From: a virus
Virus record (IMG/VR): IMGVR_UViG_3300024999_000055
Span: 1-64,000 of that record
DNA length: 64,000 nt
Reading direction: 5' to 3' (one strand)
In this document: one piece after another, positions 3,001 through 63,557 of the stretch
Numbering within the stretch: the first letter of the stretch is position 1
Layout of the letters: every line of letters starts with the position of its first letter
Program-made: the position numbers and the translations under genes
The notes under the pieces: generated by a model
The model's database searches: none
Told to the model about the DNA's origin: nothing
What the model saw: the letters and a program-made list of their open reading frames with translations, nothing else

Positions 3001-3815
3001 ATTATCAAGATATGATTGATAATGAATTAAATTTTAATAATATAAGCAAAGAATTATTGAAAGGTAACATTGATAATACCATATCAGAATTAAAAAGATT
3101 ACTAGTATTTATTAAGAATAATATTAGTAATTTAGGTCAAGGTGTAGGAAATACTCTTGCTAATGATATAAACAATAGTATTGATCAATTGACTGGAAAT
3201 TTAGGTAGCAATAACAATCCTGTAAACTCAGGAAATAGTGGGAATAATGGTAATAATAATCAACATAGCCAATATTGGCCTTACAGATCGCAAATAAATA
3301 ATATTATTTATGATAAAAAAATGTGGCAACAAGGATATGAAACTGGCAATCAACAAATGATGAAAGATGCAGAAGAGGAAGCAAAATTATATTATAATCA
3401 ATTGCCAAGTAATATTGTTAATTTATTAAAAAGTATGAATTATAGCACTGCTTCTGATTGGTATAAGAACAATGTATATCATGAGGGTGGTTTAATATCT
3501 GGTGAAAACCCTTCTAAAATAATGGATATAGTAAATAAATTATTTAATACTTCTCCTAATGAAAGTATTGTAAAAATGTTAAAAGGAGAACTTGCTATTC
3601 CTGAAACAAATGTAATGAAAAACTTTATACCTAATATGCAGAATTTGGTTAATAGTTTTATACCTAATATAACTCCTTCAGTAGTAACAAATGGTGGTAA
3701 TAATTATTATCTTACAGTTGAAGTTGCTACTATGAATGCAAATAATAAAAAAGATGTTGATAGTGTTAGTAAATCTCTAATTGATGGGATAAGAAAATTA
3801 GGGAAATCAGTATAA
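3..3815 (+). CDS. Tail tape measure protein with lytic transglycosylase domain (5' partial)
   Basis: The tape measure protein fills the tail tube, sets tail length and, in this type, also cuts peptidoglycan during DNA entry. The frame is open from the window edge, so the N-terminus is missing; 1,270 residues are present. A soluble lytic transglycosylase (SLT) domain lies at about residues 452-545, with the catalytic Glu at 480 in IKIESGFNP, then GASGLMQF and GYGEG. Residues about 830-1010 are a Glu/Lys-rich coiled coil, followed by an Asn/Gly-rich linker near 1066-1090. It stands directly before the Dit-like gene, the usual tail gene order. The internal ATG at 522 lacks a convincing ribosome binding site and is not taken as the start. 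Confidence 0.93.
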   Translation, partial: TDELKTKLTATLQNQDGFKDFKPQELDNFVSSLLKSQDVLEQIKKSGGIEIFTANLIDNGFASAFSNINKDFNELSKNTNKTQQDIDDFNNNAVSKLTEKLSYLGNPVAENVAKVITDKFGLSISEVKEKIFDFNGAIESIQKTTTDTSDKIELYNQLLEKSKESNNDAAQEVMKHVDKHKDLYDVVDVENGMLVLNTSKLEDLRSKTIETAMVTTKAEIAKAEVVSIQTQARLAQYNLEIEKLNTLINLQNSYENISKIIDSQVASGDLSRVDAVERLAQASRDIGDAFVANKLKEVKTLEDAKKVYGEWRNSQGYNEYEDSKESDAMWEKIKGYVKLKDAVEKSNAVINSPNLGVKDPNSTTNAKSAEALAWEKVTNEIKTYDNALKSLEDTTSNMIKGSKDRRDALHAENLKIKEQIDYLKQQRDGLNSTSISTPTSTTTSSNLTGVKYADIIKREVAKYSNSGITPELIAGMIKIESGFNPNAKNTKSGASGLMQFLPSTWKSEGGGDVFDPELNIQRGVAYLAKRIQWAGGNLNAGIKGYGEGTNEYLNKVLNASGQFDSNLSSITGVTSSLSKSELTTEKLLEDRVKHQEEINSKILELEKKFAQNSKEWYTDLWQETDNIIAEFEQKSNFSKSKSESMSKSSPEYRDELEIQKFNTTGIQKQLAEQAKQMDQAIENMKKGITEGTFKDKQFLEETIEKRKALSANWWNKQKEIVDKQAEITASEVEAITNKIDEYNMSLSIAQSQQEMNIKGTEKYNNALKNEILQYSNIESALKSKQAIYQKELSDTALGTLRYEELQRAISDTTKEILDNQKALYDKKKQIIDDTISLIKEAYEKEKDIALDAIDEQMEAEEKRHDQVKDNLDDELDQYKDSINQKLKLLDELSATEDYDDNISKLNKEKLDIQKQIDYLGNDDSYEAKEKREKLLKELADKQNEIDKAQKDREKELRKNSLNDQLDAYEKDVKEKQEAEDDKYEAEKERLDKLKTATEKHYQDMIDNELNFNNISKELLKGNIDNTISELKRLLVFIKNNISNLGQGVGNTLANDINNSIDQLTGNLGSNNNPVNSGNSGNNGNNNQHSQYWPYRSQINNIIYDKKMWQQGYETGNQQMMKDAEEEAKLYYNQLPSNIVNLLKSMNYSTASDWYKNNVYHEGGLISGENPSKIMDIVNKLFNTSPNESIVKMLKGELAIPETNVMKNFIPNMQNLVNSFIPNITPSVVTNGGNNYYLTVEVATMNANNKKDVDSVSKSLIDGIRKLGKSV

Positions 3816-23044: not shown

Positions 23045-24505
23045 ATATCATTACAAACAAAATCAATAAAATTTCACCTAAATGAGAAAGTTAATAAATC
23101 TAAAAATGAAAATATAATAGAGTTTCTAAAAGAATGTCAACAAGTAGAAAATTATCTATTAGAATATTATTGGGAGCATTTTGATACTATAATCAAATCT
23201 AGAAATAAAATAGATATGAATTATAATAATAAAATAAATTTTAGGGATACAGTTCCAATATTAAAATCTCATCATTTTTACACTGTGCTAGGACAATGTT
23301 TTTGGCAATTAAAATCTTTGCAGTCTAATATACAAAACAAAATTTATTTTAAAGATGAAGATAAGATTAAACAAAGAGTATATAACTACTGTAAACCATT
23401 TATATTTCAGTGGAATAAATTACATAAAAATGTATTAAAACAAAGTAATAAAGATAAGAAAAATAAAGAATATCAAGAATTTATTAATAATGTATTAATA
23501 TATTTAAATGATGAACAATTATTCAATCAAATGAAACAAGATATTGAGAATCGTTTTTGGAAAATTAAGTCTAATTATAAAATTCCTCAAAAGAAAGAAT
23601 TGCAGATTTGGGTTGATACATATTTAACTACAAAAATAGAAAAGAAAGAATTTGATTGGTTTTTTATTATTAGCAAAAATCAAAAACGTACTAAAAAGAT
23701 TTATGACAATATGGTAATTCCTGTAAAATTATCAGAATATCATAAAAAAACATTGGAAGGAAAAACTATTAAAAATAGTTTAAATTTAAAATTAAATAAG
23801 TATGGCAAAATTGAAATTACCGTAGTATATGAAGAAGAAATTAATTATCCAGAATCATATCCTAAAGATATACTTGGTATTGACATTGGATTAAAAAGAC
23901 TTATAACTGATTCTAATGGTGAGTTTATAAAACAAAATGTAAATATTATTAAAAAGGTAAATAATATTGTAAATAAGCAATCTAATAGACAAACATTAGA
24001 AGAACATTTAAAGGTTAAATATAATAATAATGATTTTAGACTAAAGGATAAAAGATATTTAAGACAACAAACAAAAGTATCTGATTATGTTAAAAATAAT
24101 AATAGATATAAAATAAAACAATATCTTAAATCACATACTGATTATCATATTATTATGGAAGATATCAAATTAAGAGATTCTAAAACATATGATAAAAAGA
24201 CTAATTATTTATTAAGAAGACTTCATATACAACATTTAAAGCAAGATATTTTTGGATATGCTAAAAAATTAGGGATTGGAGTTACTTTAATTAATCCTGC
24301 ATTTACAAGTCAACAATGCCCTATCTGTGGTCATATTAGTAAAGATAATCGTAAAACACAAGAGACGTTCTGTTGTGTGAAATGTGGTCATGAAAATAAT
24401 GCTGATGTAAATGCAAGTATAAATATTAAGAATAGATTATTTGAAAAAAGAATAAAACTTAATACTCCATTTTGGAAGGTAAAACAAATACTTCAAATGA
24501 AGTAA
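23045..24505 (+). CDS. tnpB: TnpB-like RNA-guided nuclease, probable ATA start
   Basis: 486 residues when read from ATA 23045, 7 bases after GGAGGTG; the first ATG (23216) would remove 57 residues including the N-terminal strand (KSIKFHL) typical of TnpB. The RuvC-like catalytic set is intact: Asp280 in LGIDIGLKRL, Glu372 in IIMEDIKLRD and Asp454 in NNADVNASINI. A zinc ribbon (CPICGH, CCVKCGH) lies between the last two. TnpB proteins are RNA-guided DNA nucleases of IS200/IS605 and IS607 elements. It is longer than most TnpBs (about 370-400). No TnpA transposase is present, so it is an orphan tnpB unit, mobile in trans or retained for nuclease activity. Confidence 0.88.
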   Translation: MSLQTKSIKFHLNEKVNKSKNENIIEFLKECQQVENYLLEYYWEHFDTIIKSRNKIDMNYNNKINFRDTVPILKSHHFYTVLGQCFWQLKSLQSNIQNKIYFKDEDKIKQRVYNYCKPFIFQWNKLHKNVLKQSNKDKKNKEYQEFINNVLIYLNDEQLFNQMKQDIENRFWKIKSNYKIPQKKELQIWVDTYLTTKIEKKEFDWFFIISKNQKRTKKIYDNMVIPVKLSEYHKKTLEGKTIKNSLNLKLNKYGKIEITVVYEEEINYPESYPKDILGIDIGLKRLITDSNGEFIKQNVNIIKKVNNIVNKQSNRQTLEEHLKVKYNNNDFRLKDKRYLRQQTKVSDYVKNNNRYKIKQYLKSHTDYHIIMEDIKLRDSKTYDKKTNYLLRRLHIQHLKQDIFGYAKKLGIGVTLINPAFTSQQCPICGHISKDNRKTQETFCCVKCGHENNADVNASINIKNRLFEKRIKLNTPFWKVKQILQMK

Positions 24506-24589
24506 ACTTTATTCGGCTGCATTGTAAAGCCTACGGTTAAGCGTACTTTAGTACAGACACCGTTTGAATCAAATAGAAATATTTGAATA
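24506..24589 (+). ncRNA. Candidate right-end guide RNA (omega/reRNA) of the 23045 TnpB
   Basis: Directly after the tnpB stop comes a folded, GC-richer stretch (TTCGGCTGCATTGTAAAGCC, ACGGTTAAGCGTACTTTAGT) that ends with AATCAAATAGAAATATTTGA and ATA (24567-24589). Nearly the same end sequence follows the second tnpB on the minus strand at 58880-58857. In TnpB systems the guide begins right after this end, here from about 24590. The stretch 24590-24870 holds no gene; it is unusually G-rich and C-poor on this strand. Confidence 0.65.
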
Positions 24590-24874
24590 CAATTGTTGTT
24601 TGGTTATGATATTTTAGGTTGAGTTAAATTTAAGTGTAATTTAGGATAAATTTCATAGCCTATAAACTGTTGTATTATAAGGGTTTGTAGGTTGGGTAAA
24701 TTTGGAATATTAATAAATAAACGATATTTTATGGCTATTTCGAGGGTTGATTTTGATTAGGATAAAATGTGTGTTGAAGGAATTTGAGTGGTTTATTTGG
24801 GTGAAATATGGAGTTTGTTTTTGATTTTTGGTTTTTATATGGGTGATATTAAAATAAATATTTCTATAGAAAAT

Positions 24875-24925: not shown

Positions 24926-25003
24926 TAAGCAGACTAGGATAGGCCATCCAAAAGATAGTATTCCTTAACTATTTGTCTGCTTATAGATTTTTTTATTAAG
25001 GAA
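24926..25003 (+). ncRNA. Three-way-junction leader RNA with pseudoknot, copy 1
   Basis: P1: TAAGCAGAC (24926-24934) with GTCTGCTTA (24975-24983). P2: GGAT/ATCC closing the 5-base loop AGGCC (24941-24945). P3: ATAGT/ACTAT closing the 8-base loop ATTCCTTA (24960-24967). The P3 loop TTCCTTAA can pair with TTAAGGAA (24996-25003), 12 bases after P1. A T-rich run lies in that linker. The helicase gene follows at 25034. Copy 2 at 29400 has the same plan with different stems. Confidence 0.78.
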
Positions 25004-25033
25004 AACAAAATAATATTAAAGGAGATGTTAAAA

Positions 25034-26977
25034 ATGAATTATGAAAAGTATTTTACATCATTAGATTCAACAAAGAAAGAAAATTTTATTAATGATGTAG
25101 TTAATTTAACAATCAAGGATTTAGTAAGTTATGGTAATGTGATTAGTGATGAAAAATACACAGAATCATTAAAAATTATTGCAGATAATATTATGTTTTA
25201 TGATAACAATAAAATTATAAATGCAATTAATTTTCCTACTGGCTGTGGCAAAACGACAATAATGATAAATAGTATTGCATATATGGTTAATAATAAAGAA
25301 TTATTGCCTTATTCTGGTACAATAATATTAAGATTATATAAAAGTGATTGTGATGATACAGCAAGTGCCATTAATAAAAAGGTCAAGAAAAATGTTGCCT
25401 ATAGTTTTCATAGTGGAGATAACAAAAATAGAATAAATAATGAAGATTTATCTACTTATCCAATTGTAGTAATGACACATGAAGGATTTAAAACACTAAT
25501 AAAAAATAATGATTTAGAAAGATTGCAATGTTGGGCAAATAAAAAGAGAAATAGAATAACAAAAGAATATAATAAATTTTATAGACAAAGATTGATTATT
25601 GATGAAGAGATTAAAAATGTAAGATTCTTTGAAGTAAATATTAAAACTATAAATAATTTAGAAAATTGTATTATGAATCTTGGAAATAATGATTTATACG
25701 ATGAATTTATTGAATTTATTATTAAGATTAAAAGAGAATTTTTAAAGCCATATGCGATCCAGAAAAATAAGATGTTTTTTATCACCCTTGATAATATAGT
25801 TGTGCCTGAAAAATTAGATGAAGTAATTTATGATTCTAAAGATAAAATAGCACAAGAAAGTTTATTAAGTATCCATAATTTACTTGAACATGGTGGATAT
25901 TTAAGATATAGTGATGAAATTGAGCATAAAAGTATAGTAACATTTCAATATATTGATATTAATTCTCCTTTATTTAGTCAAATTGCTTTAGATGCAACAA
26001 GTGGAATTAATCATTTATATAAAATAAATAAAGATTATAATGTAATTAATTTACCAATAATAAAAAATTATAATAATACATATATAAATATATTCAATGG
26101 AATTACAGGTAGTAGAAAATCTATAGGAGATAATTTAGAAGAAGGATTATTAGATAAATTCGTTGAGTATATAGAAAATAATATCGTAGAAACAGATAAA
26201 GTATTAATAATATTAAATAAAAAAGATTATGAAGCACCTATTAAAAAAAGATTTAAAGATTACATATATCTTGAAAATTTAATTTTTACATACTATGGAT
26301 TAACTACTGGAATAAATGATTATGCAGAATGTAATAAATTATTTTCTTTAGGGATACCTCTTATGGACGATCCTTGTACTCCCTTATTATATTTTTTATC
26401 AACAATAGAAATTGATAAATTAAAACCTGATAATTTTAATTCTATGGATACTACATTAATACCAAAAAAAGGTGCTAGAAGATTTATTGAAGAAGAATTT
26501 GAGAATATTAGAGTATCACAAACTGCTTCAGTAGTTACTCAAGCAATTAATAGAATATCATGTAGACAATATATTAAAGGAGATACACCACTTACTTATA
26601 TTTTTCTTATAAATAAGGATAAAGAGATAGATAATTTAATATCAATATCTATGCCAGGAGTTAATATTAGTTATGATTGGAAATTAGATTTTGAAGATAA
26701 GAAAGGAAATATTAAAACTAGAAAAATTACACCTGAAGAAAAGTTGATTCATGTGATGCAGAGAATTATTGAAGATGAAGAATATAGAAATGAATTAATT
26801 GAAAAGAAAATGTATAGTGTGGATAAAGGGATTAAAAAGAGTAAGTTAAGAGAATTAGCAGATATGGGAAATAGAGTGGCATATAACGATGCTATGAAGA
26901 AACCACTTATGGAACAATTTATTAAAGATTATAATTTGACCATTAATAGTACAGATAAATGCATAAAATTAATTTAA
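25034..26977 (+). CDS. SF2 helicase-like protein with accessory C-terminal module
   Basis: 647 residues. Walker A is NFPTGCGKTTIMINS (about residue 70), a DEAD-type Walker B is RLIIDEEIKN (about 190), LDATSG (about 320) resembles the motif seen in phage and plasmid DEAD-box-like ATPases, and VVTQAINRISCRQY (about 500) could be motif VI with its Arg finger. Residues about 560-647 form a separate module (KLIHVMQRIIEDEEYRNELI, GIKKSKLRELADMGNRVAY) that also ends the HNH protein at 27064. Start is ATG 25034; the ATG at 25025 overlaps the ribosome binding site AAAGGAG. It is preceded by the pseudoknot RNA at 24926. The two genes probably form one functional pair. Confidence 0.75.
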   Translation: MNYEKYFTSLDSTKKENFINDVVNLTIKDLVSYGNVISDEKYTESLKIIADNIMFYDNNKIINAINFPTGCGKTTIMINSIAYMVNNKELLPYSGTIILRLYKSDCDDTASAINKKVKKNVAYSFHSGDNKNRINNEDLSTYPIVVMTHEGFKTLIKNNDLERLQCWANKKRNRITKEYNKFYRQRLIIDEEIKNVRFFEVNIKTINNLENCIMNLGNNDLYDEFIEFIIKIKREFLKPYAIQKNKMFFITLDNIVVPEKLDEVIYDSKDKIAQESLLSIHNLLEHGGYLRYSDEIEHKSIVTFQYIDINSPLFSQIALDATSGINHLYKINKDYNVINLPIIKNYNNTYINIFNGITGSRKSIGDNLEEGLLDKFVEYIENNIVETDKVLIILNKKDYEAPIKKRFKDYIYLENLIFTYYGLTTGINDYAECNKLFSLGIPLMDDPCTPLLYFLSTIEIDKLKPDNFNSMDTTLIPKKGARRFIEEEFENIRVSQTASVVTQAINRISCRQYIKGDTPLTYIFLINKDKEIDNLISISMPGVNISYDWKLDFEDKKGNIKTRKITPEEKLIHVMQRIIEDEEYRNELIEKKMYSVDKGIKKSKLRELADMGNRVAYNDAMKKPLMEQFIKDYNLTINSTDKCIKLI

Positions 26978-26988
26978 ATAATATAAAA

Positions 26989-27033
26989 ATCGTAAGGTTA
27001 CTCATATAAGTATATATACAGTAACCTTACGAT
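26989..27033 (+). repeat. Perfect 13-base inverted repeat between helicase and HNH genes
   Basis: ATCGTAAGGTTAC (26989-27001) and GTAACCTTACGAT (27021-27033) around 19 bases. No T tract follows directly, so it may be an attenuator, processing site or protein-binding site rather than a plain terminator. Confidence 0.7.
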
Positions 27034-27063
27034 AAATTATTAATATAATATCGGAGGTAAAAT

Positions 27064-27927
27064 ATGAATAACATAGAAGATATGTCTTTAAATCAATTCA
27101 ACAATTATTTAAATGAATTAATTAATCAGTTTGTTGAATCGCATCAAGAAGAATACCAAGAAGGTAAAATTAATTATTTTTTAAATAAGAAAATTAAAAA
27201 TATAAGTAATATAGATACAATAACTATAATTAAAGATGTTCCTTTGGATGTATATATAAGAAATTTAAAAGAAATTAGAATTTGGAGAAATAATATAATT
27301 AAAAAATATAATGGTAAATGTTTTATTTCAGGAGAAACTTATGACGAAGTACACCATATAACTTCATTTTTAGCATGTATGGTAGATACTTTGAATGAAT
27401 TAGGGTTAGATAGGAGAAAATATATTGCTGATTATAGTGAAGAAGAATTAGATAATATAACTAATATTTTTATTGAAAAACATAAAAATATAGATGCTAT
27501 ATTATTAACACAGAAATTGCATTATGAATTTCATTATATTTTCGGCAAATATTGTTTTGATGAAAAAGATTTAGAATTGTTTATTAAATATAAAAATAAT
27601 GAAATAGAATTAGATATAAGAAAGATACAAAAAGAAAAATATAAAGAATTTAAAAATAATATTAAAACATATAAACCTTTGTCACCAGAAAATATATTAT
27701 TTAATATTTTAAATAAAATTATTAATGATGAAGATTATAAACAGCAATTAATTAAATCCAATATGTATGATAAAAACAAAGGAATTACTAAAACAAAATT
27801 AAGAGAATTAAGTAATATAAATAGTAGAACAACATTTAAAAGAGTAATGAGTGGTGAATTAATAGAAAATTTATTTAAAAATAATAATATTACATATGGC
27901 AATAATGATCATTATATAAAATTTTAA
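27064..27927 (+). CDS. HNH endonuclease with the helicase-partner C-terminal module
   Basis: 287 residues. The central part has an HNH/His-Me-finger core: CFISGETYDEVHHITSF (Cys and the HH pair) and LLTQKLHYEFHYIFGKYC about 60 residues later. An unusual insert of about 50 residues separates the halves, as in some homing-type HNH proteins (compare 29542). Residues about 205-287 (NILFNILNKIINDEDYKQQL, GITKTKLRELSNINSRTTF) are clearly similar to the end of the helicase at 25034. GGAGG lies 7 bases before the ATG. I infer a two-component module in which the shared tail recruits both proteins to the same partner or DNA site. Confidence 0.8.
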   Translation: MNNIEDMSLNQFNNYLNELINQFVESHQEEYQEGKINYFLNKKIKNISNIDTITIIKDVPLDVYIRNLKEIRIWRNNIIKKYNGKCFISGETYDEVHHITSFLACMVDTLNELGLDRRKYIADYSEEELDNITNIFIEKHKNIDAILLTQKLHYEFHYIFGKYCFDEKDLELFIKYKNNEIELDIRKIQKEKYKEFKNNIKTYKPLSPENILFNILNKIINDEDYKQQLIKSNMYDKNKGITKTKLRELSNINSRTTFKRVMSGELIENLFKNNNITYGNNDHYIKF

Positions 27928-27946
27928 TATTAATTTATGTAGTTAC

Positions 27947-27976
27947 ATAGAAAATTACCCTTTTTGCATTTTCTAT
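27947..27976 (+). repeat. Inverted repeat in the 27.9-28.3 kb intergenic region
   Basis: ATAGAAAAT (27947-27955) and ATTTTCTAT (27968-27976), a 9-base stem with a 12-base loop. It is the first of three hairpins in a 364-base stretch without a recognisable gene. Confidence 0.6.
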
Positions 27977-28086
27977 TACAGAGTGAATCCTACTTTTTTA
28001 TATATGATTTTACATATTTGGCAATAAATAATTTTAAATTTTACCTTATCAAACCAATTGAAAATTTTTACTTGCCAAAGGCATCC

Positions 28087-28164
28087 TCTTAATATTATAG
28101 AATTTCATTACACTTCGCTACACTTACGTTTCGCTACGTTCCATTTCATTCTATAATATTAAGA
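28087..28164 (+). repeat. Perfect 17-base inverted repeat with internal TTCGCTAC repeats
   Basis: TCTTAATATTATAGAAT (28087-28103) and ATTCTATAATATTAAGA (28148-28164). The 44-base loop contains TTCGCTAC twice and is less AT-rich than the surroundings. It may be a stable ncRNA, a miniature mobile element or a protein-binding site. Confidence 0.75.
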
Positions 28165-28177
28165 TTGTCCTTATTAA

Positions 28178-28196
28178 TTTTCGCTTATAGCGAAAA
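28178..28196 (+). repeat. Short strong hairpin TTTTCGCT/AGCGAAAA
   Basis: 8-base perfect stem with a 3-base loop, 14 bases after the 17-base inverted repeat. TTCGCT is shared with that repeat's loop. Confidence 0.65.
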
Positions 28197-28291
28197 GTTA
28201 ATTCGTCCAAATTAGAATTTTATTGTTTTTTATTAGATTGGTATTTGATAGATAGTATTAGATTAATAATATAGTAACAAGGAGATTGATA

Positions 28292-28519
28292 ATGAACAAT
28301 TTACTAGAATTAGAATCTACAGAAGAATGTAAATATTGCTCTGCTTCAAATATTCTAATGTCCTCCTCTACATCATCTAACTTCAAAGATAAAGAATATT
28401 TCTTATATTTTCAGAATAATAATTTGAGTTTGTTTGAGGGTGGTGAGGAAGGAATGGTAGTTTTGGATGAGATTAGGATTGGGTATTGCATGTTTTGTGG
28501 TAGGGAATTGTTTGGTTGA
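28292..28519 (+). CDS. Small zinc-ribbon protein
   Basis: 75 residues with CKYCSAS near the N-terminus and YCMFCGRELF at the C-terminus, a four-Cys zinc site of the kind seen in many short phage proteins. Start is ATG 28292, after AAGGAG; an in-frame TTG at 28286 is less well placed. A terminator follows. Confidence 0.72.
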   Translation: MNNLLELESTEECKYCSASNILMSSSTSSNFKDKEYFLYFQNNNLSLFEGGEEGMVVLDEIRIGYCMFCGRELFG

Positions 28520-28566
28520 GGTTGTTTAATTGGTTATTAGACTAATAAAATAAATATTTATATTTT

Positions 28567-28598
28567 AATAGAGCATAATTTCTGCTCTATTTTTTTTA
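28567..28598 (+). terminator. Terminator before the Mom-like gene
   Basis: AATAGAGCA and TGCTCTATT, a 9-base stem with a 7-base loop and a long T run. Confidence 0.85.
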
Positions 28599-28622
28599 TT
28601 TTTAAGGAGGTTTAATTATAAT

Positions 28623-29285
28623 TTGAATAATTTGGAAGTTACAAATATTACATATAATCATACAATACTTCGTGCAACAAATCCAGAATTAAGAAAGCAA
28701 GGTAAAGAATTTATTAATACATATCACTCATACATAAAGTTTTCAGATAGACCATCAAGAAAATTATATTGGAATTTATATGAAAATGGTGAAATGGTAG
28801 GAGTATTTGCATTAGGGAGTGCTTTTTCACATTCTAAAATAGTAAAAGAATATATGATAAATAACAATTTACAATTTAATGAAGTGGCAAATAATATTGT
28901 CTATTGTTTGGCAAATTGTGAAAATAAAAATGCAGGTACAATATTTTTAAAATTATGTAGACAAGATGCTATTAAGTGGTGGAATGAAAGATATGGAGAT
29001 TATTTAAAAGCATTTCAAACTTTTATACTTCCACCAAGAATAGGTGCTATATACAAAGCAGATAATTGGAGTTTAATTGGTGAGACAATTGGAAATTCTC
29101 AAAAAACTAAAAACATAAGACCAGATAAAATTGATCAATATAAAAATGTACAGAAGAAAACATTCAAAGATGGTAGAGTGGAATATTGTATATATATCGA
29201 AAATAAAGTAGAACCAAAATTAATATTTATGAAATTAGTTAAGGATAAAGAATTGAAAAGAATATTGGGAATTAAGAATTTATAG
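28623..29285 (+). CDS. Mom-like (GNAT-fold) DNA modification protein
   Basis: 220 residues. The layout matches the phage Mu Mom and DUF4338 group of GNAT-related proteins: YWNLYENGEMVGVFALGSAF gives the two central strands, NEVANNIVYCLANCENKNAG the acetyl-CoA-binding turn region, and RIGAIYKADNWSLIGETIG the characteristic IYxAxNWxxxGET end of the core. Mom converts adenine in DNA to a methylcarbamoyl form that blocks restriction. Start is TTG 28623, about 11 bases after AAGGAGG. Its neighbours (HNH nucleases, a DGQHR protein) suit a modification and anti-restriction island. The family call is from motif shape; substrate is not shown by sequence. Confidence 0.7.
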   Translation: MNNLEVTNITYNHTILRATNPELRKQGKEFINTYHSYIKFSDRPSRKLYWNLYENGEMVGVFALGSAFSHSKIVKEYMINNNLQFNEVANNIVYCLANCENKNAGTIFLKLCRQDAIKWWNERYGDYLKAFQTFILPPRIGAIYKADNWSLIGETIGNSQKTKNIRPDKIDQYKNVQKKTFKDGRVEYCIYIENKVEPKLIFMKLVKDKELKRILGIKNL

Positions 29286-29352
29286 TTTAAATTGATATAT
29301 TTTTAAAATTGAATTTGAATTGAATATTTAAATTTAATATTTGAGTTTTTTT

Positions 29353-29378
29353 AGAGTGGGCAAATTATCTGCTCTTTT
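29353..29378 (+). terminator. Imperfect terminator after the Mom-like gene
   Basis: AGAG (29353-29356) pairs with CTCT (29372-29375), extended by wobble pairs, and TTTTTT follows. Confidence 0.5.
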
Positions 29379-29399
29379 TTGTTTTGTAGTTTTATATGG

Positions 29400-29487
29400 A
29401 AAAAGATAAATCACATTAGGCCAATGTGGTTGATAAGAGAGGTAAATTCCGATACCTCTCTTCTTTTTTGTTTTTAGGTGATCGGAA
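29400..29487 (+). ncRNA. Three-way-junction leader RNA with pseudoknot, copy 2
   Basis: P1: AAAAAGA (29400-29406) with TCTTTTT (29462-29468). P2: AATCACATT/AATGTGGTT closing AGGCC (29418-29422). P3: AGAGAGGTA/TACCTCTCT closing the 8-base loop AATTCCGA (29445-29452). Loop bases TTCCGAT pair with ATCGGAA (29481-29487), again 12 bases after P1. The P1/P2 joint is TA in both copies. P3 plus the T run also looks like a terminator, so a switch between termination and pseudoknot is possible. The HNH gene starts at 29542. Confidence 0.78.
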
Positions 29488-29541
29488 CAGGTAATTGAAA
29501 GATTGCTAATATAAAAATCTTCGGAAGGATTGGTGATAATT

Positions 29542-30609
29542 ATGGGATTGATTACTAAAGAGATTGAAATTAAATGTAGTCCAAATAATAAATATTTAAT
29601 TGAAAAAGGTTATGATTGGAAATATAGTAAAAGCATAATCATAAATATAGATGATTTATCTAAAAGTAGTCATAAAGAAATAGAAATACAATGTGATATT
29701 TGTAAAAATACTATTATGAATAAACCATATAGAGATCATTTAAAATTAATGAAAAATAATCCAGATCATATTTATTATTGTGATAATTGTTTTTTAGAAA
29801 AAATAAGAAAAGAATTTGATGATAAAGATTTAATATTAATTAGTGACAAATATATAAATTGTTTTGAAAAATTAGAATTTATATGTAAAACACATATTGA
29901 TGCAGGTATACAATATGTTCCTTATAGTAGATTTAAAAGTAAAAATCAAGGTTGTAAAATATGTAGTAGATTAATTAAAAATGAAATTTATAAATTAGAT
30001 TTTAATTATATAAAATTTATATGTAATATTAAAGATTATATGTTATTAACTGATGAATATATAAATGGAAGAATAAAAATGCCATATATTTGTAGAAAAC
30101 ATTCAGATGAAATACAATATGCTACAGCATATCAATTAATTTATAATGAAAATACCTGTAAACATTGTATTAATGAAAATAGAAGTGGAATTAATCATCC
30201 TTGTTGGAAAGGTGGAGAAACACCTTTATATGAACATTTAAGAAATAAATTAGAACAATGGAAATTTGATTCTTTGAAAAATTCTGATTTTAAATGTGTG
30301 GTAACTGGTAAACGTGCAACAAACAAATATAAAGTTCATCATTTATTATCTTTTCATACAATTTTACAAATTATATTAGATAAATATAATATACCTAGAA
30401 GTAAAAAATTAAATGAATTCACAGCAAAAGAATTAAATATTATAGAAGACGATTTTTTAAAAGAACATAAATTATTAGGTGTTTGTTTGCACCCTGAAAT
30501 ACATAAATTATATCATCATCTCTATTCATATTGGAATAATACACCTGAACAATTTGAAGAATTTAAAATAAGATATAAATTTGGAGAGTTTGATAAATTA
30601 ATATTATAA
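29542..30609 (+). CDS. HNH homing-type endonuclease with N-terminal zinc repeats
   Basis: 355 residues. The first ~225 residues contain repeated Cys/His segments (IQCDICKN, YYCDNCF, CKICSR, YICRKH, CKHCIN) that look like tandem DNA-binding zinc modules of intron and free-standing endonucleases. The HNH core follows: INHPCWKGG, then FKCVVTGKRATNKYKVHHLL and GVCLHPEIHKLYHHLY. The insert between the two halves is of the same type as in the HNH protein at 27064 (LxxFTxxExxIIEDDFLKEH here). Start is ATG 29542, 6 bases after GGTG. The long leader carries the pseudoknot RNA. A convergent terminator separates it from the DGQHR gene. Confidence 0.82.
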   Translation: MGLITKEIEIKCSPNNKYLIEKGYDWKYSKSIIINIDDLSKSSHKEIEIQCDICKNTIMNKPYRDHLKLMKNNPDHIYYCDNCFLEKIRKEFDDKDLILISDKYINCFEKLEFICKTHIDAGIQYVPYSRFKSKNQGCKICSRLIKNEIYKLDFNYIKFICNIKDYMLLTDEYINGRIKMPYICRKHSDEIQYATAYQLIYNENTCKHCINENRSGINHPCWKGGETPLYEHLRNKLEQWKFDSLKNSDFKCVVTGKRATNKYKVHHLLSFHTILQIILDKYNIPRSKKLNEFTAKELNIIEDDFLKEHKLLGVCLHPEIHKLYHHLYSYWNNTPEQFEEFKIRYKFGEFDKLIL

Positions 30610-58882: not shown

Positions 58883-60097
58883 TTAGATTATATTAACTCT
58901 AACTGGATGTAAACCTACACCCTCTATTCCCTCTGCAAAAGCATCAGGAAATACTTTTTTAATAATCTGGTATGCACCATTTAAGTCTGCATTAATAAAT
59001 TCACCTCCATTACTTTGAAATAATCCTCTTGCCACTCTTCTACTTTTATTATAATTTTCTTTACATGGTATTTCACCATCAAGAAAACTTGTACCAGAAG
59101 TATATGATTCTTCTGTTTCAATAAAATTAATACCAACATTCTCACATTTGTATTTAATCTTTTCAATAAATAAACTATGTGGAATACCAACAAAATTCTG
59201 ATTAACTTTCCTACTCATATTACTTTCTTGTTTCCAATCTTTATTTTTACCTACTACCACAGTATCGATATTATTCTCAATGCACCAATTAATTATGTAT
59301 TTACTTGTTTTATGTATATAATCAGTTATTTTATTATTTCGTTTATTAGTTAATTGCTGTAGTTTATTACTCCAATTTTTATCATGTTTTAATTTTAAAT
59401 CAGATTGTTTTTTAGATTTTTCTTTATTATAATACTGATTTATAGATTTCAATGGTTTACCATTAATTATGAATGATTGTAATCCAATATTATTCCCTAC
59501 AGTCGCCAAATTATCTATTCCAATATCTATCCCTATTATATTGTTATTATAACTTATTTTTTCTGGAACATCAATTTCGTAAACAATTTCCATTATATAT
59601 GTATCACTTTTTGGTATAAATCTCACTTGCATAAGTTTACCATTTACATTAGTTCTTATTTTATTATTTAATGGTTTTAATTTACTCCAACTAAATCTTA
59701 AATAACCATCACTTATACTGAATTTAATATTATCAATTATTAAATTATATCTTCCTTCTTTTTCTTTATAATTAGGAAGTTTAGGTTTACCTAAAAATTT
59801 ATCTTTGTTTTTATTCCATTCTTTAATACCTGCAAAAAATGACCTCCAATTTTGATCAAGTAATTTTAAAGTTTGTTGACCTACATTGCTCCCTATTTCT
59901 TTATATGGTTCAGATTCTTTACACAACTGAAATAATTCATTATATCTAATCCATTTTTTATTATTTATAAATTCTTGACGAATTATATAATTAGCATAAT
60001 TATAAAGATTTTTAGATTTAAAACATAACTCATCTATTAATTTCCATTGTGGATTATTCTTTTTAATGATATGTTGTTCAACTCTATTTGTTTTCAT
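58883..60097 (-). CDS. tnpB: TnpB/OrfB-family protein
   Basis: 404 residues. RuvC motif I GIDIGIDNLATV (Asp191) and motif III INADLNGAYQI (Asp371) are present. VVVGKNKDWKQES occupies the place of motif II, with no Glu in the usual position but one in WKQE. The last zinc ribbon is degenerate (YTSGTSFLD instead of a CxxC), as in a common clostridial OrfB subgroup. No TnpA is next to it. ATG 60097 with AAGGAC. It is a second, divergent tnpB on the minus strand, sharing the right-end motif with the first. Confidence 0.85.
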   Translation of the reverse strand: MKTNRVEQHIIKKNNPQWKLIDELCFKSKNLYNYANYIIRQEFINNKKWIRYNELFQLCKESEPYKEIGSNVGQQTLKLLDQNWRSFFAGIKEWNKNKDKFLGKPKLPNYKEKEGRYNLIIDNIKFSISDGYLRFSWSKLKPLNNKIRTNVNGKLMQVRFIPKSDTYIMEIVYEIDVPEKISYNNNIIGIDIGIDNLATVGNNIGLQSFIINGKPLKSINQYYNKEKSKKQSDLKLKHDKNWSNKLQQLTNKRNNKITDYIHKTSKYIINWCIENNIDTVVVGKNKDWKQESNMSRKVNQNFVGIPHSLFIEKIKYKCENVGINFIETEESYTSGTSFLDGEIPCKENYNKSRRVARGLFQSNGGEFINADLNGAYQIIKKVFPDAFAEGIEGVGLHPVRVNII

Positions 60098-60359: not shown

Positions 60360-63300
60360 TTAATTTAAACATTTTATTAACATATCTTTTAAATGTGTTT
60401 GTTTGGTCGAAACACTGGTTTGTTTAATTGCATATCTCAATGCTCTATTTTCAGCACATAATACACAATATTCTTTTGCTCTAGTTAACATTGTATACAC
60501 CATTTCCTTAGTTAATAATTTATAGTGAGAGTAATCCAACGCTGCTATTACATATTTTATTCCAGAACCCTGTGCCTTATGACAAGTCATTACATAGCCA
60601 AGAGATATTTTAGGTAAATGAGACTTAGGAATATATATATTACCTTTATTATTAAAATTAACAATTAGAGTATTTCTTATATAATCAATATCAACTACAA
60701 TTCCTAAATCTCCATTGAATATTGGAATTTCATCTCCATATTCATTTACTGTTTTATAATTATTTTTATTATTTAAGACTTTATCACCTATATAAATTGT
60801 GAAAGGATATTTTGAGTTATCTCCAACAATTAACCCTTTTTTATTTTTAGTATCAATAACAATTTCCTGCAATAAATTATTTAAGTAGTAAGCACTTGCT
60901 TTTCCTCTTTCTTTCATTGGTACAATGACTTGAATATCAAATATGCTTTCAGTTTTTGGTAATAATTCTTTAAAGTGTTCTACAACCTTTGTATGAGTAT
61001 TATTTTTGTCTTTATATATATCTAATTTTAAGTCTTGTAATTCTCCTCTAATTTCTATACCTGTGAAATCTTTATCAATAATTTGTTCTTGATTTTTAAT
61101 TTTAATACTTTCTGTAATAATTGCTGATTTTTCTGCTTGTCTATGAATTTTTGTAAGTTTTACAATTTTTATATATCCACTTTGAATCATATCAAACATA
61201 ATATTTCCGACACCAATAGATTCCAATTGATGCTCGTCACCTAACATGATTAATTTTGATCCAGTTTCTATAGCTTGAATTAATTTATAAAAAATATCTG
61301 CCCCATCCATAGATATCTCATCATGAATAATTATTTTTACAGGAAGTTTATTGTTTTTATTATATGTAAAACCAGTTTCAGGATTATATCCTAATAATCT
61401 ATGAATTGTATAACCATCTTCACCAGTTATTTCACTTAAATTACACGAAGCTCTACCTGATAATGCGGTTTGGGCAAAAGAATAGTTTTTCTTAAACACT
61501 TCTAATTCCCCTGCTACTGTGCTACTCTTTCCACAATTTCCAGTAATAAATATTTTATTATTCCTTCTTAATATTAACATTCCTGAAGGTACAGTGAAAC
61601 AATATTTATATCCATCTAATGTTTTATATTTAGTTATTGGTGTTTTTGTGTGAGGATTAACAATAGTGATGTCTATATTATTTGTTGGTAAAACGCAATA
61701 ACAAGGATTATCATATCTTTCGTCAATATATATTGTCGCTCTAATACCACAAGCAGAAAATGCAAACTGCATAAAATCTGCACTTTCTTTTTCTATTGTA
61801 ATAAATCTAGGCAGTGAATTTTTTGGACTTGAACTATCCCAATATTTATATTCATCAATTATTATTTTTAATTGATTATTTGAACATTTATACCAGTAAC
61901 TATCAAATATTTTACTTCTTTTAGGAGCATCAAAATAAATATATGTAAGATTATCTTTTGTAGTAATAGAATAATTAATATTACAATCATTTAATAATTG
62001 TAATGCTCTTTTTATTTTTCTTTCTTTTGAAAAACATAACCTACATCTATTTGTTGAGGTAGTATCGTGAAAATAACCGTCAGCATGTATACAAACCATT
62101 AGTCTAATTTCATTATCTGTTAAATCTATACCATTTGATGAATAATTAAATGTTGTAATAAATTTACCGTCAAAACCATTTTTCTTTTTATTGTGCTTTT
62201 GAATCATCTCAGACATTTTAATATTTATAATATTATTTTTATAATTTTTATATATTACTTTGTGTTCATCACATAAACACTGATTTGCCCCTCTTGTTTC
62301 AAAATGCCATAGGTATTCAGAAGGATATTTATGATATTTTAACGGATTAACTAATTCAGAATTTCCATTTTTATTATATTGTAATACTTTATCACTCTCT
62401 TTATAATTTGATATTTTCGCCCATTTTACACCATTGAAATATTCTGTATCACAATCTACACAACCTGCCGATCCCGTAATCATTACCACTTGATTTTCAA
62501 GAATAGTTTTAATCCCTTCTATTTGTTCTTCTGTAAATTCCCATCCTTGTCTTTGTTCTAGTTTTTGAATTCTATCTTCCCAATCTTTAAATTCAAAATA
62601 ATTTTCTACTTCATTTAGCCTTTTTAACTCTTTGGCAATATTTTCTTCCAAGTTATAATATTTCATTAAGCTAATTTTATCTTGGTTTTCACTTGTCCAA
62701 ATTATGTTTTGATTCTTCATTTCACGCAATGCCTGTGTTAGAGTTTCTTGTGGTAATTCACATCCAATTGTCCCATCTACAGCATCTAGAAGATTATCTA
62801 TATCCACCCATGTATTACCAATATATGCTTCCTGATGTAAATAGTATTTAACATACGCTTTTACTCTATTAATTGAATATTCCCCTAATCCACTATTTAA
62901 AGCCATTTCATCTGCTTTATCCCATCCAATTCCATCAATTTCATCAATTAATATATATGGATTTTCCTCTATTTTTGCAATTACTGTATTTGGACTTCCA
63001 TAAAAATCAACTAATTTTTCGATTGTATTGTTACTTAACCCATATTTATCTAATTTTACATATGCTTCTGAATAATCTTTACTGTTTTCATATTTTTCTA
63101 TTAGTTTTAAAGCAGTTGGAACACCAATCCCTTTTACTGTGCATAATGCTTTAATATCATTATCTTCCAATACTTCAATAGGATTTTCAAAAGTTTTAAA
63201 CAATTCAATACATTGTTTTTCAGGTAATATTTTTTCTAAAAATTTATATTGATCTTCTTTATTATTTAATTTTATATCTATACACATGAAAATTATTTTA

Positions 63301-63557
63301 TATTGTATGCCAAATCTTTCATTTTCTACTTCTTTGCCAATAATTACATAAATTTCATCATCATTTATTTCACACATACATCCAGTTAATGTAATAGTTC
63401 CCCATTTATTTATTCGTGGTTCTCCTTGCAATGTATCTAAGATAGTAACGGAAATTATACCAAAATCTCCGTTACCAATAATCTTATTTTTAGGAAACAT
63501 TTGTTTAGATAAACGACATTTGCATTTAATCATTATATCGTCTTGATTTTGTTCCAA
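60360..63557 (-). CDS. recD2: RecD2-type SF1 helicase with intein in the Walker A motif
   Basis: 1,065 residues encoded; about 756 after removal of the 309-residue intein (366-674), the size of RecD2. The extein has N-terminal helix-hairpin-helix repeats (CTVKGIGVPTALKLIEKY) and the SF1 motifs: Walker A GSAG-CGKSST split by the intein, Walker B IIIHDEISMD, LGDEHQLESIGVGN, HRQAEKSA, and late motifs GYVMTCHKAQGSG and MVYTMLTRAKEYC. RecD2 is a 5'-3' helicase of DNA repair and, in phages, replication or recombination. Start is TTG 63557, 7 bases after AAAGGAGG. It lies just after dnaE in the replication region. Confidence 0.93.
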   Translation of the reverse strand: MEQNQDDIMIKCKCRLSKQMFPKNKIIGNGDFGIISVTILDTLQGEPRINKWGTITLTGCMCEINDDEIYVIIGKEVENERFGIQYKIIFMCIDIKLNNKEDQYKFLEKILPEKQCIELFKTFENPIEVLEDNDIKALCTVKGIGVPTALKLIEKYENSKDYSEAYVKLDKYGLSNNTIEKLVDFYGSPNTVIAKIEENPYILIDEIDGIGWDKADEMALNSGLGEYSINRVKAYVKYYLHQEAYIGNTWVDIDNLLDAVDGTIGCELPQETLTQALREMKNQNIIWTSENQDKISLMKYYNLEENIAKELKRLNEVENYFEFKDWEDRIQKLEQRQGWEFTEEQIEGIKTILENQVVMITGSAGCVDCDTEYFNGVKWAKISNYKESDKVLQYNKNGNSELVNPLKYHKYPSEYLWHFETRGANQCLCDEHKVIYKNYKNNIINIKMSEMIQKHNKKKNGFDGKFITTFNYSSNGIDLTDNEIRLMVCIHADGYFHDTTSTNRCRLCFSKERKIKRALQLLNDCNINYSITTKDNLTYIYFDAPKRSKIFDSYWYKCSNNQLKIIIDEYKYWDSSSPKNSLPRFITIEKESADFMQFAFSACGIRATIYIDERYDNPCYCVLPTNNIDITIVNPHTKTPITKYKTLDGYKYCFTVPSGMLILRRNNKIFITGNCGKSSTVAGELEVFKKNYSFAQTALSGRASCNLSEITGEDGYTIHRLLGYNPETGFTYNKNNKLPVKIIIHDEISMDGADIFYKLIQAIETGSKLIMLGDEHQLESIGVGNIMFDMIQSGYIKIVKLTKIHRQAEKSAIITESIKIKNQEQIIDKDFTGIEIRGELQDLKLDIYKDKNNTHTKVVEHFKELLPKTESIFDIQVIVPMKERGKASAYYLNNLLQEIVIDTKNKKGLIVGDNSKYPFTIYIGDKVLNNKNNYKTVNEYGDEIPIFNGDLGIVVDIDYIRNTLIVNFNNKGNIYIPKSHLPKISLGYVMTCHKAQGSGIKYVIAALDYSHYKLLTKEMVYTMLTRAKEYCVLCAENRALRYAIKQTSVSTKQTHLKDMLIKCLN
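61536..62462 (-). other. Intein with LAGLIDADG homing endonuclease inside recD2
   Basis: Residues 366-674. Begins with Cys (CVDCDTEYFNGVKW), has CLCDEHKV as the block B His region, and ends FITGN before Cys675 of the extein. The last Asn and the +1 Cys fit splicing; the penultimate residue is Gly instead of His. In the middle, RLMVCIHADGYFHD is a LAGLIDADG-type motif, with FMQFAFSACGI as the second block. It inserts in the P-loop of the helicase, so an unspliced protein would be inactive. Confidence 0.88.

Follow-up and report, generated by a model that had tools for sequence, protein, structure and literature searches.

In T-even phages, RNA structures lying over the ribosome-binding site (RBS) block translation of I-TevI, segB and mobE, and RBS occlusion by RNA structure is common to the T-even homing endonucleases I-TevI, I-TevII, I-TevIII, segB and Aeh1 mobE (PMC2988022). 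Those leaders are individual stem-loops, which are bypassed by an internal late promoter. The subject of the present analysis is a pair of RNA elements, copy 1 and copy 2, in a 64,000 nt stretch of viral DNA (positions 1 to 64,000 of IMG/VR record IMGVR_UViG_3300024999_000055; ‘the window’ denotes this whole stretch). As in the T-even leaders, the RNA has a strand that complements the ribosome-binding region of homing endonuclease genes. In contrast to the T-even leaders, both elements belong to a widespread, covarying family of phage RNAs, with no record in Rfam, which combines a three-way junction, a decoy strand, a pseudoknot and a palindromic loop and which also precedes replication and antirepressor genes.

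In pseudoknotted translational riboswitches and in three-way junctions of the exoribonuclease-resistant RNA (xrRNA) type, a loop pairs with a strand downstream of helix P1, and the pseudoknotted riboswitches control start sites. No Rfam model matches the present RNA, and we know of no riboswitch or xrRNA with alternative pairing to a repeated decoy. Symmetric kissing-loop palindromes that change version, as the loop of helix P2 does here, are found in OLE, GOLLD and ROOL, where a cryo-electron microscopy study took loops switching between GGCC, GAUC and AGCU as evidence that these RNAs homo-oligomerize (PMC12286853); all three are large non-coding RNAs, whereas the present RNA is an mRNA leader of 60–70 nt. 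The dimerization initiation site (DIS) of HIV-1 is likewise a hairpin loop with a purine-flanked 6 nt palindrome (PMC7357161), but its sequence, context and host are unrelated.

The loop of helix P3 matches two separate places downstream, one of them at the start codon, and alternative pairing that controls initiation is therefore the best explanation of the element. As judged from sequence comparison, it is probably a cis-acting translational on/off switch with a decoy, carried in the 5′ leaders of selfish or early phage genes. No description of the family was found in the literature searched, with preprints and most subscription papers outside that search; the family and its decoy-plus-palindrome layout are likely, though not proven, to be new.

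Structure of the two leaders

Two RNAs with helix P1, the joint UA, helices P2 and P3 and, 12 nt beyond P1, a pseudoknot strand had been drawn in a first-pass annotation of the window, and sequence and fold agree with that drawing. Their parts are as follows (J12 and J23, joints between helices; L2 and L3, loops of P2 and P3; R1 and R2, covariance models introduced below).

24926–24983, + strand: copy 1, three-way junction (sequence; fold; R2 16.8 bits, E 0.004, filters off)
24926–24934/24975–24983, + strand: copy 1 P1, followed by J12, UA, at 24935–24936
24937–24940/24946–24949, + strand: copy 1 P2, with loop AGGCC at 24941–24945
24953–24959/24968–24974, + strand: copy 1 P3, with loop ATTCCTTA
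24960–24967, + strand: copy 1 L3, the strand with two alternative downstream partners (complementarity)
24996–25003, + strand: copy 1 pseudoknot (decoy) strand TTAAGGAA, separated from P1 by 12 nt and complementary to L3 over 8 bp
25019–25023, + strand: copy 1 second site AAGGA, within the Shine-Dalgarno sequence of the helicase gene, 5 bp with L3
29400–29468, + strand: copy 2, three-way junction (sequence; fold; R1 65.2 bits as a training member; R2 46 bits)
29400–29406/29462–29468, + strand: copy 2 P1, with J12 UA
29409–29417/29423–29431, + strand: copy 2 P2, with loop AGGCC and J23 GATA
29418–29422, + strand: copy 2 P2 loop AGGCC with the 4 nt palindrome GGCC, proposed kissing loop (palindrome statistics)
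29436–29444/29453–29461, + strand: copy 2 P3, with loop AATTCCGA
29445–29452, + strand: copy 2 L3 (complementarity to downstream sites)
29481–29487, + strand: copy 2 pseudoknot (decoy) strand ATCGGAA, after a 12 nt spacer from P1
29521–29526, + strand: copy 2 second site TCGGAA, complementary to L3 over 6 bp, in the HNH gene’s ribosome-binding region

Thermodynamic folding yields the drawn helices, with shuffle z-scores of −2.3 for the core of copy 1 and −4.8 for that of copy 2. A descriptor of the form P1-TA-P2-P3-P1′ plus pseudoknot was run on both strands of the fetched loci, about 1.45 Mb in all, and on a similar amount of shuffled sequence; copy 2 scored 36.5 and copy 1 33.0, against a top shuffled score of 29.9. 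Copy 1 is divergent, with junction AAA in place of GAUA, and is outside the training set; within 6 kb only copy 2 scored higher with R2. No homologues of the copy 1 helicase were found in viral contigs, so that this copy rests on its structure, its pseudoknot and the common P2 loop. The remainder of the 106 kb IMG/VR record contains no third copy by descriptor or models.

Two targets for the P3 loop

In one member after another, L3 is the complement of two nearly identical stretches, one being the pseudoknot strand and the other lying immediately ahead of the start codon. The paired sites are ATCGGAA (decoy) and TCGGAA (start region) in copy 2 and AGGAATG and AAGGAATG, respectively, in L062, while in L178 the same sequence, GAAAGGAA, occurs twice, as decoy and as start-region site. 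To separate fit from a generic likeness to Shine-Dalgarno sequences, the match of each L3 to its own sequence was compared with its match to the sequences of every other member. Across 57 members, L3 forms 5.84 bp with its own pseudoknot strand and 3.71 bp with those of others (z 16), and 5.21 bp with its own start region against 4.05 bp with others’ (z 10). The 34 members of the set found by junction letters gave 6.15 versus 3.47 bp for the pseudoknot (z 14) and 5.76 versus 3.88 bp for the start region (z 11). None of 20,000 permutations reached the own-L3 fit in any of the four comparisons.

Of 36 strong cases, 12 have a second site unlike a Shine-Dalgarno sequence, and in most of these the decoy is repeated 0–5 nt before ATG; the strongest cases belong to this group. 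Such sites include CTTCTGC (L339, L332), CTTCGAC (L310) and GGTCAAT (L320), with L278 as a further case; in L332 the loop AAGCAGAAGG and the decoy CTTCTG are followed by CTTCTGC-GTT-ATG. The median gap between second site and start codon is 5 nt. Predicted duplex energies average −8.1 kcal/mol for the decoy and −7.4 kcal/mol for the start site, the decoy being the stronger partner in 37 of 65 members, and near-equal energies of this kind suggest that the RNA is poised between its two pairings. The first-pass annotation had taken TTCC and GGAA to be constants; they proved to be this phage’s own versions of variable, mutually complementary elements.

Members of the family and covariation

About 100 distinct members were found, in phage contigs, one named isolate and two bacterial chromosomes. 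Their consensus is (R)GGGA-UA-G...P2...Y-GAYA-AG...P3...CU-UCCC, followed by an AU-rich spacer and the pseudoknot strand; the junction letters are near-invariant and the stems and loops vary freely. Upstream regions of homologues of the copy 2 HNH protein were collected and inspected, and many carry the RNA. One of them, L001, is syntenic with the window, with a zinc-finger HNH gene, a phrog_5732-like gene and a serine recombinase gene in the same order. R1, a covariance model built from eight members and trained largely on descriptor-selected sequences, recovers members outside its training set (L086 at 40 bits, L001 at 38 bits) and has matches in 24 of 59 phage records, with up to three copies in some. 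Sporosarcina phage Lietuvens (MT104122.1) carries the RNA, at 3188–3251, between its terminase and portal genes, preceding an HNH gene, and the bacterial genomes with the RNA are Bacillus sp. FJAT-22090 and L149, the latter reached by protein search. The set was enlarged by a pattern scan for one P2-loop version and by a scan that fixed the junction letters only. The second model, R2, finds members in most (about four fifths) of 71 new junction-letter loci, and the contigs of junction-letter members span 25–63 % G+C. E-values come from a shortened calibration and are rough; near-duplicate sequences were removed, and the shuffles ignore relatedness.

Several searches returned little or nothing. 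Both leaders and two member cores, compared by blastn with named phages, had no relative besides Lietuvens; Staphylococcus matches from blastn were to a split recombinase locus, probably an intron, in a record without an R2 match. The covariance model had no match in nine named phages with related endonucleases, nor in Silviavirus qdsa001. A model search of 399 Bacilli-class genomes had too few candidates scored per genome to recover even a known member and is uninformative. Weak matches in L114–L118 (20–22 bits) were dropped, as was a scan for the pattern TGATCA, whose matches were mostly chance.

Rfam 15, at its gathering score, has no match in the whole window, and at E up to 10 neither the window stretch nor 15 member loci gave a credible match to the element. 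What remained were overlaps far under threshold: Ref66 at copy 2 (E 4.4) and DUF805b near L062 (E 4.9), both on the opposite strand, and L20_leader across L086 (E 9.2). The first-pass annotation had recognized no known RNA family in this form and had proposed a covariance-model search as the check; that search gave many further matches with covarying stems, and Rfam was negative.

P1 to P3 covary strongly across the family. In alignment A6, 98 % of cells are paired and both sides have changed in 18 of 22 pairs, with most of its sequences picked by a descriptor that demands pairing. Alignment A9, of 66 distinct rows, has 96.2 % of cells paired and a covariation score of 0.731, against 0.211 when shuffled and at most 0.168 when slid, which bears out the covariation first noticed between the two window copies. 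P2 and P3 also covary in A10, which holds model-confirmed junction-letter matches (0.575 versus 0.156 shuffled) and, being fitted to the model, leans towards the structure. MAFFT alignments of raw leaders misplaced the helices; N-padded rows and then covariance-model alignments were used.

Variants lacking P3 are possible upstream of HNH genes in L023, L024, L028, L029, L030 and L033. In these, a long outer helix appears to enclose a P2-like hairpin and an unpaired strand that matches a downstream strand over 8–12 bp, and L028, L030 and L033 retain a 6 nt P2-loop palindrome. They were read by eye, their helices were not cleanly resolved by script, and they are treated as a lead.

Palindromes in the P2 loop

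When members chosen on the basis of their P2 loop are set aside, 21 of 32 L2 loops contain a 6 nt palindrome, compared with 3.6 in shuffled loops; P3 loops contain none. The hexamers are TAATTA, TCATGA, TGATCA, TCGCGA, TAGCTA, TTGCAA, TTCGAA, CTGCAG and GTCGAC. In the junction-letter set, 6 nt palindromes are present in 17 of 35 loops (4.2 expected) and palindromes of at least 4 nt in 33 of 35 (16.4 expected). The loop is thus kept palindromic while its sequence changes, as in known kissing loops, and it sits in a covarying RNA hairpin, often flanked by purines. GGCC, present in both window copies, is a 4 nt case; the loop AGGCC, at first thought to be a fixed part of the RNA, is one of many palindromes. 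In L001 and L194:1775, which lack a hexamer, the loop reads GACG, which is known to form a kissing contact of two base pairs (PMC7357161). Since the two centre letters of a palindrome stand side by side, they could not form a pair inside a single loop; the signal thus points to base pairing from one RNA molecule to another, and the leaders probably dimerize through a P2 kissing loop.

Several copies in one phage usually differ in their P2-loop palindrome (L105, L120 and L124 of G008; L178, L188, L189, L184), as if cross-pairing were avoided. Exceptions are L181 and the window, whose copies have a palindrome in common.

Promoters and downstream genes

A perfect sigma-70 promoter (TTGACA-N16–18-TATAAT, 12/12) that places the start at the base of P1 is found in 9 of 60 distinct upstream regions, against 0.00 in 300 shuffles, and a score of at least 11/12 with that start in 11 of 60, against 0.03. 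In such members the RNA would be the extreme 5′ end of its message. Where these promoters are seen, sigma-70 consensus being what was scored, they lie upstream of the structure, so that all of it is transcribed. The promoter at the P1 base in some members, the second L3 target and the P2-loop palindrome go beyond the first-pass annotation.

An open reading frame lies on the same strand within 110 nt downstream in 62 of 67 members, compared with 28 % at random positions. The genes are mostly of homing endonuclease types, namely zinc-finger DUF4379, HNH, GIY-YIG with NUMOD, and NUMOD4/HNH, in keeping with the initial placement of the RNAs in leaders of mobile nuclease genes. Others encode AntA and KilA-N (with T5orf172) antirepressor-like proteins, or DnaD-like helicase loaders/replication initiators. 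The genes concerned in the window are:

25025–26977, + strand: gene after copy 1, superfamily 2 helicase (DEAD/ResIII; Pfam)
27064–27927: HNH gene following the helicase gene (HHI motif in the translation)
29530–30609, + strand: gene after copy 2, zinc-finger HNH homing endonuclease-like (NTPEQFEEFKI family; phrog_5104, phrog_681, homologues)

DnaD-like replication initiator genes follow the RNA in L310, L331, L332, L339 and others, and their start sites are often not Shine-Dalgarno-like; this position suggests a wider role in phage timing. The DnaD-like genes of three named phages have no room upstream for the RNA. The helicase and the neighbouring HNH protein have a C-terminal domain in common (31 % over 175 aa, E 3e-16), a likeness that suggests a shared module. 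A group I intron (Rfam RF00028, 59 bits) lies at L086:1798–2143, near the RNA and its nuclease gene.

Proposed mechanism and alternatives

Under the proposed switch, the three-way junction of P1, P2 and P3 would present L3 as a strand complementary to the translation initiation region. Pairing of L3 with the decoy, some 9–13 nt after P1, would form the pseudoknot and leave the start site free, presumably the ON state; pairing with the start site would block initiation (OFF). Both pairings would have to form in cells. Of the functions first listed for these RNAs, control of the downstream gene is the best by a wide margin, and the comparison points to translation as the regulated step because L3 also matches the gene’s own initiation region. 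Two leaders are predicted to be linked through their palindromic P2 loops in a symmetric kissing-loop contact, and either the RNA concentration or a factor bound to the conserved junction may tip the balance between ON and OFF. It is conceivable, if doubtful, that the leaders sense their own concentration, with P2-loop dimerization moving L3 between decoy and start region.

A switch of this kind would add a new RNA family to phage gene control, with a design in which one loop has two matching targets, one at the start codon, and would give selfish genes a portable control unit of promoter, switch and start region that is independent of landing place. Should dimerization be real, the element would be one of few natural mRNA leaders to use a symmetric kissing loop, and if the leaders do sense their own concentration, they would be a protein-free feedback switch for homing endonuclease, replication and antirepressor genes.

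A number of observations weigh against the proposed switch. About one third of members are without a second site of at least 5 bp, and the two-site design is not universal. The 5 bp second site of copy 1, AAGGA, is weak evidence when taken alone, and in a few members (e.g. L160) the decoy may itself be the RBS. The L2 palindrome is absent in a few members (L059, L257). A clear sigma-70 promoter is missing from both window copies and terminator-like hairpins precede them, for which reason phage-specific promoters or read-through may serve the two copies. The fits of L3 could in part reflect constitutive dampening and not a regulated switch.

The foremost rival is a metabolite or protein riboswitch, in which the junction GGGA-UA-G / GAYA-AG / CU-UCCC forms a pocket and a ligand shifts L3 between its sites; it departs from the proposed switch in the signal alone, dimerization then being secondary. 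Near-invariant junction letters amid freely varying stems and loops, and the retrieval of members by those letters alone in about four fifths of new stretches, would fit a pocket, but the same letters may serve folding only and the downstream homing endonucleases, replication initiators and antirepressors have no common metabolic theme, so that we consider a ligand rather improbable. Protection of the mRNA 5′ end, with helix and pseudoknot shielding it from RNase J and pyrophosphohydrolase, is unlikely. It would suit the members whose promoters set the start at P1, and flavivirus xrRNAs are likewise built as a three-way junction whose P3 loop pairs with a strand beyond P1; it leaves unexplained the member-specific fit of L3 to the start region and the L2 palindromes, and many members have no such promoter, some lying within operons, between genes. 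Quite unlikely, too, is that the L2 palindrome is a pair of DNA operator half-sites for a dimeric protein and not an RNA kissing loop. Operators are typically palindromic, but this palindrome varies by member, always within a covarying hairpin loop and often purine-flanked as in the HIV-1 DIS, and the GACG of two members is listed as a kissing loop (PMC7357161).

The idea that P3 or P1 forms an intrinsic terminator with a T-rich stretch, under control of the pseudoknot, goes back to the T-rich sequence that follows P3 in copy 2, which was at first read as a terminator. That T run is accounted for by the 3′ strand of P1 and the AU-rich spacer; many members lack it, the spacer after P1 being merely AU-rich (e.g. 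TATTAATAATAG in L059) with no conserved U tract, and the second L3 target lies at the start codon, past any terminator. Attenuation of transcription is accordingly very unlikely. Least likely of all is a guide or ribozyme, an early suggestion prompted by adjoining genes that are mostly nucleases, acting as a cofactor of the downstream endonuclease. In place of a single partner such as omega RNA or HEARO would have, the RNA is followed by GIY-YIG, HNH, NUMOD4, DUF4379, DnaD-like, AntA and KilA-N genes; the unrelated folds of these proteins (GIY-YIG, HNH, NUMOD4/HNH and zinc-finger nucleases, with DnaD-like helicase loaders and AntA/KilA-N proteins as non-nucleases) argue against a common guide or cofactor role, and no conserved variable segment of guide length was seen.

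Other features of the window

Two TnpB/OrfB-like genes (Cas12f1-like_TNB, OrfB_IS605) lie at 23216–24505 (+) and 58883–60097 (−). The former is just upstream of copy 1 and possibly has an omega-RNA-like 3′ end near 24500–24600. Between the RNA copies are an intergenic perfect 17 nt inverted repeat with a 44 nt loop (28087–28164) and a gene for a Mom-like DNA modification protein (28623–29285; phrog_1384, E 2.5e-11). A RecD2-like helicase gene at 60360–63557 (−) has its Walker A region interrupted by an intein-like insert (GSAGC to GNCGKSS junction) with a faint LAGLIDADG match.

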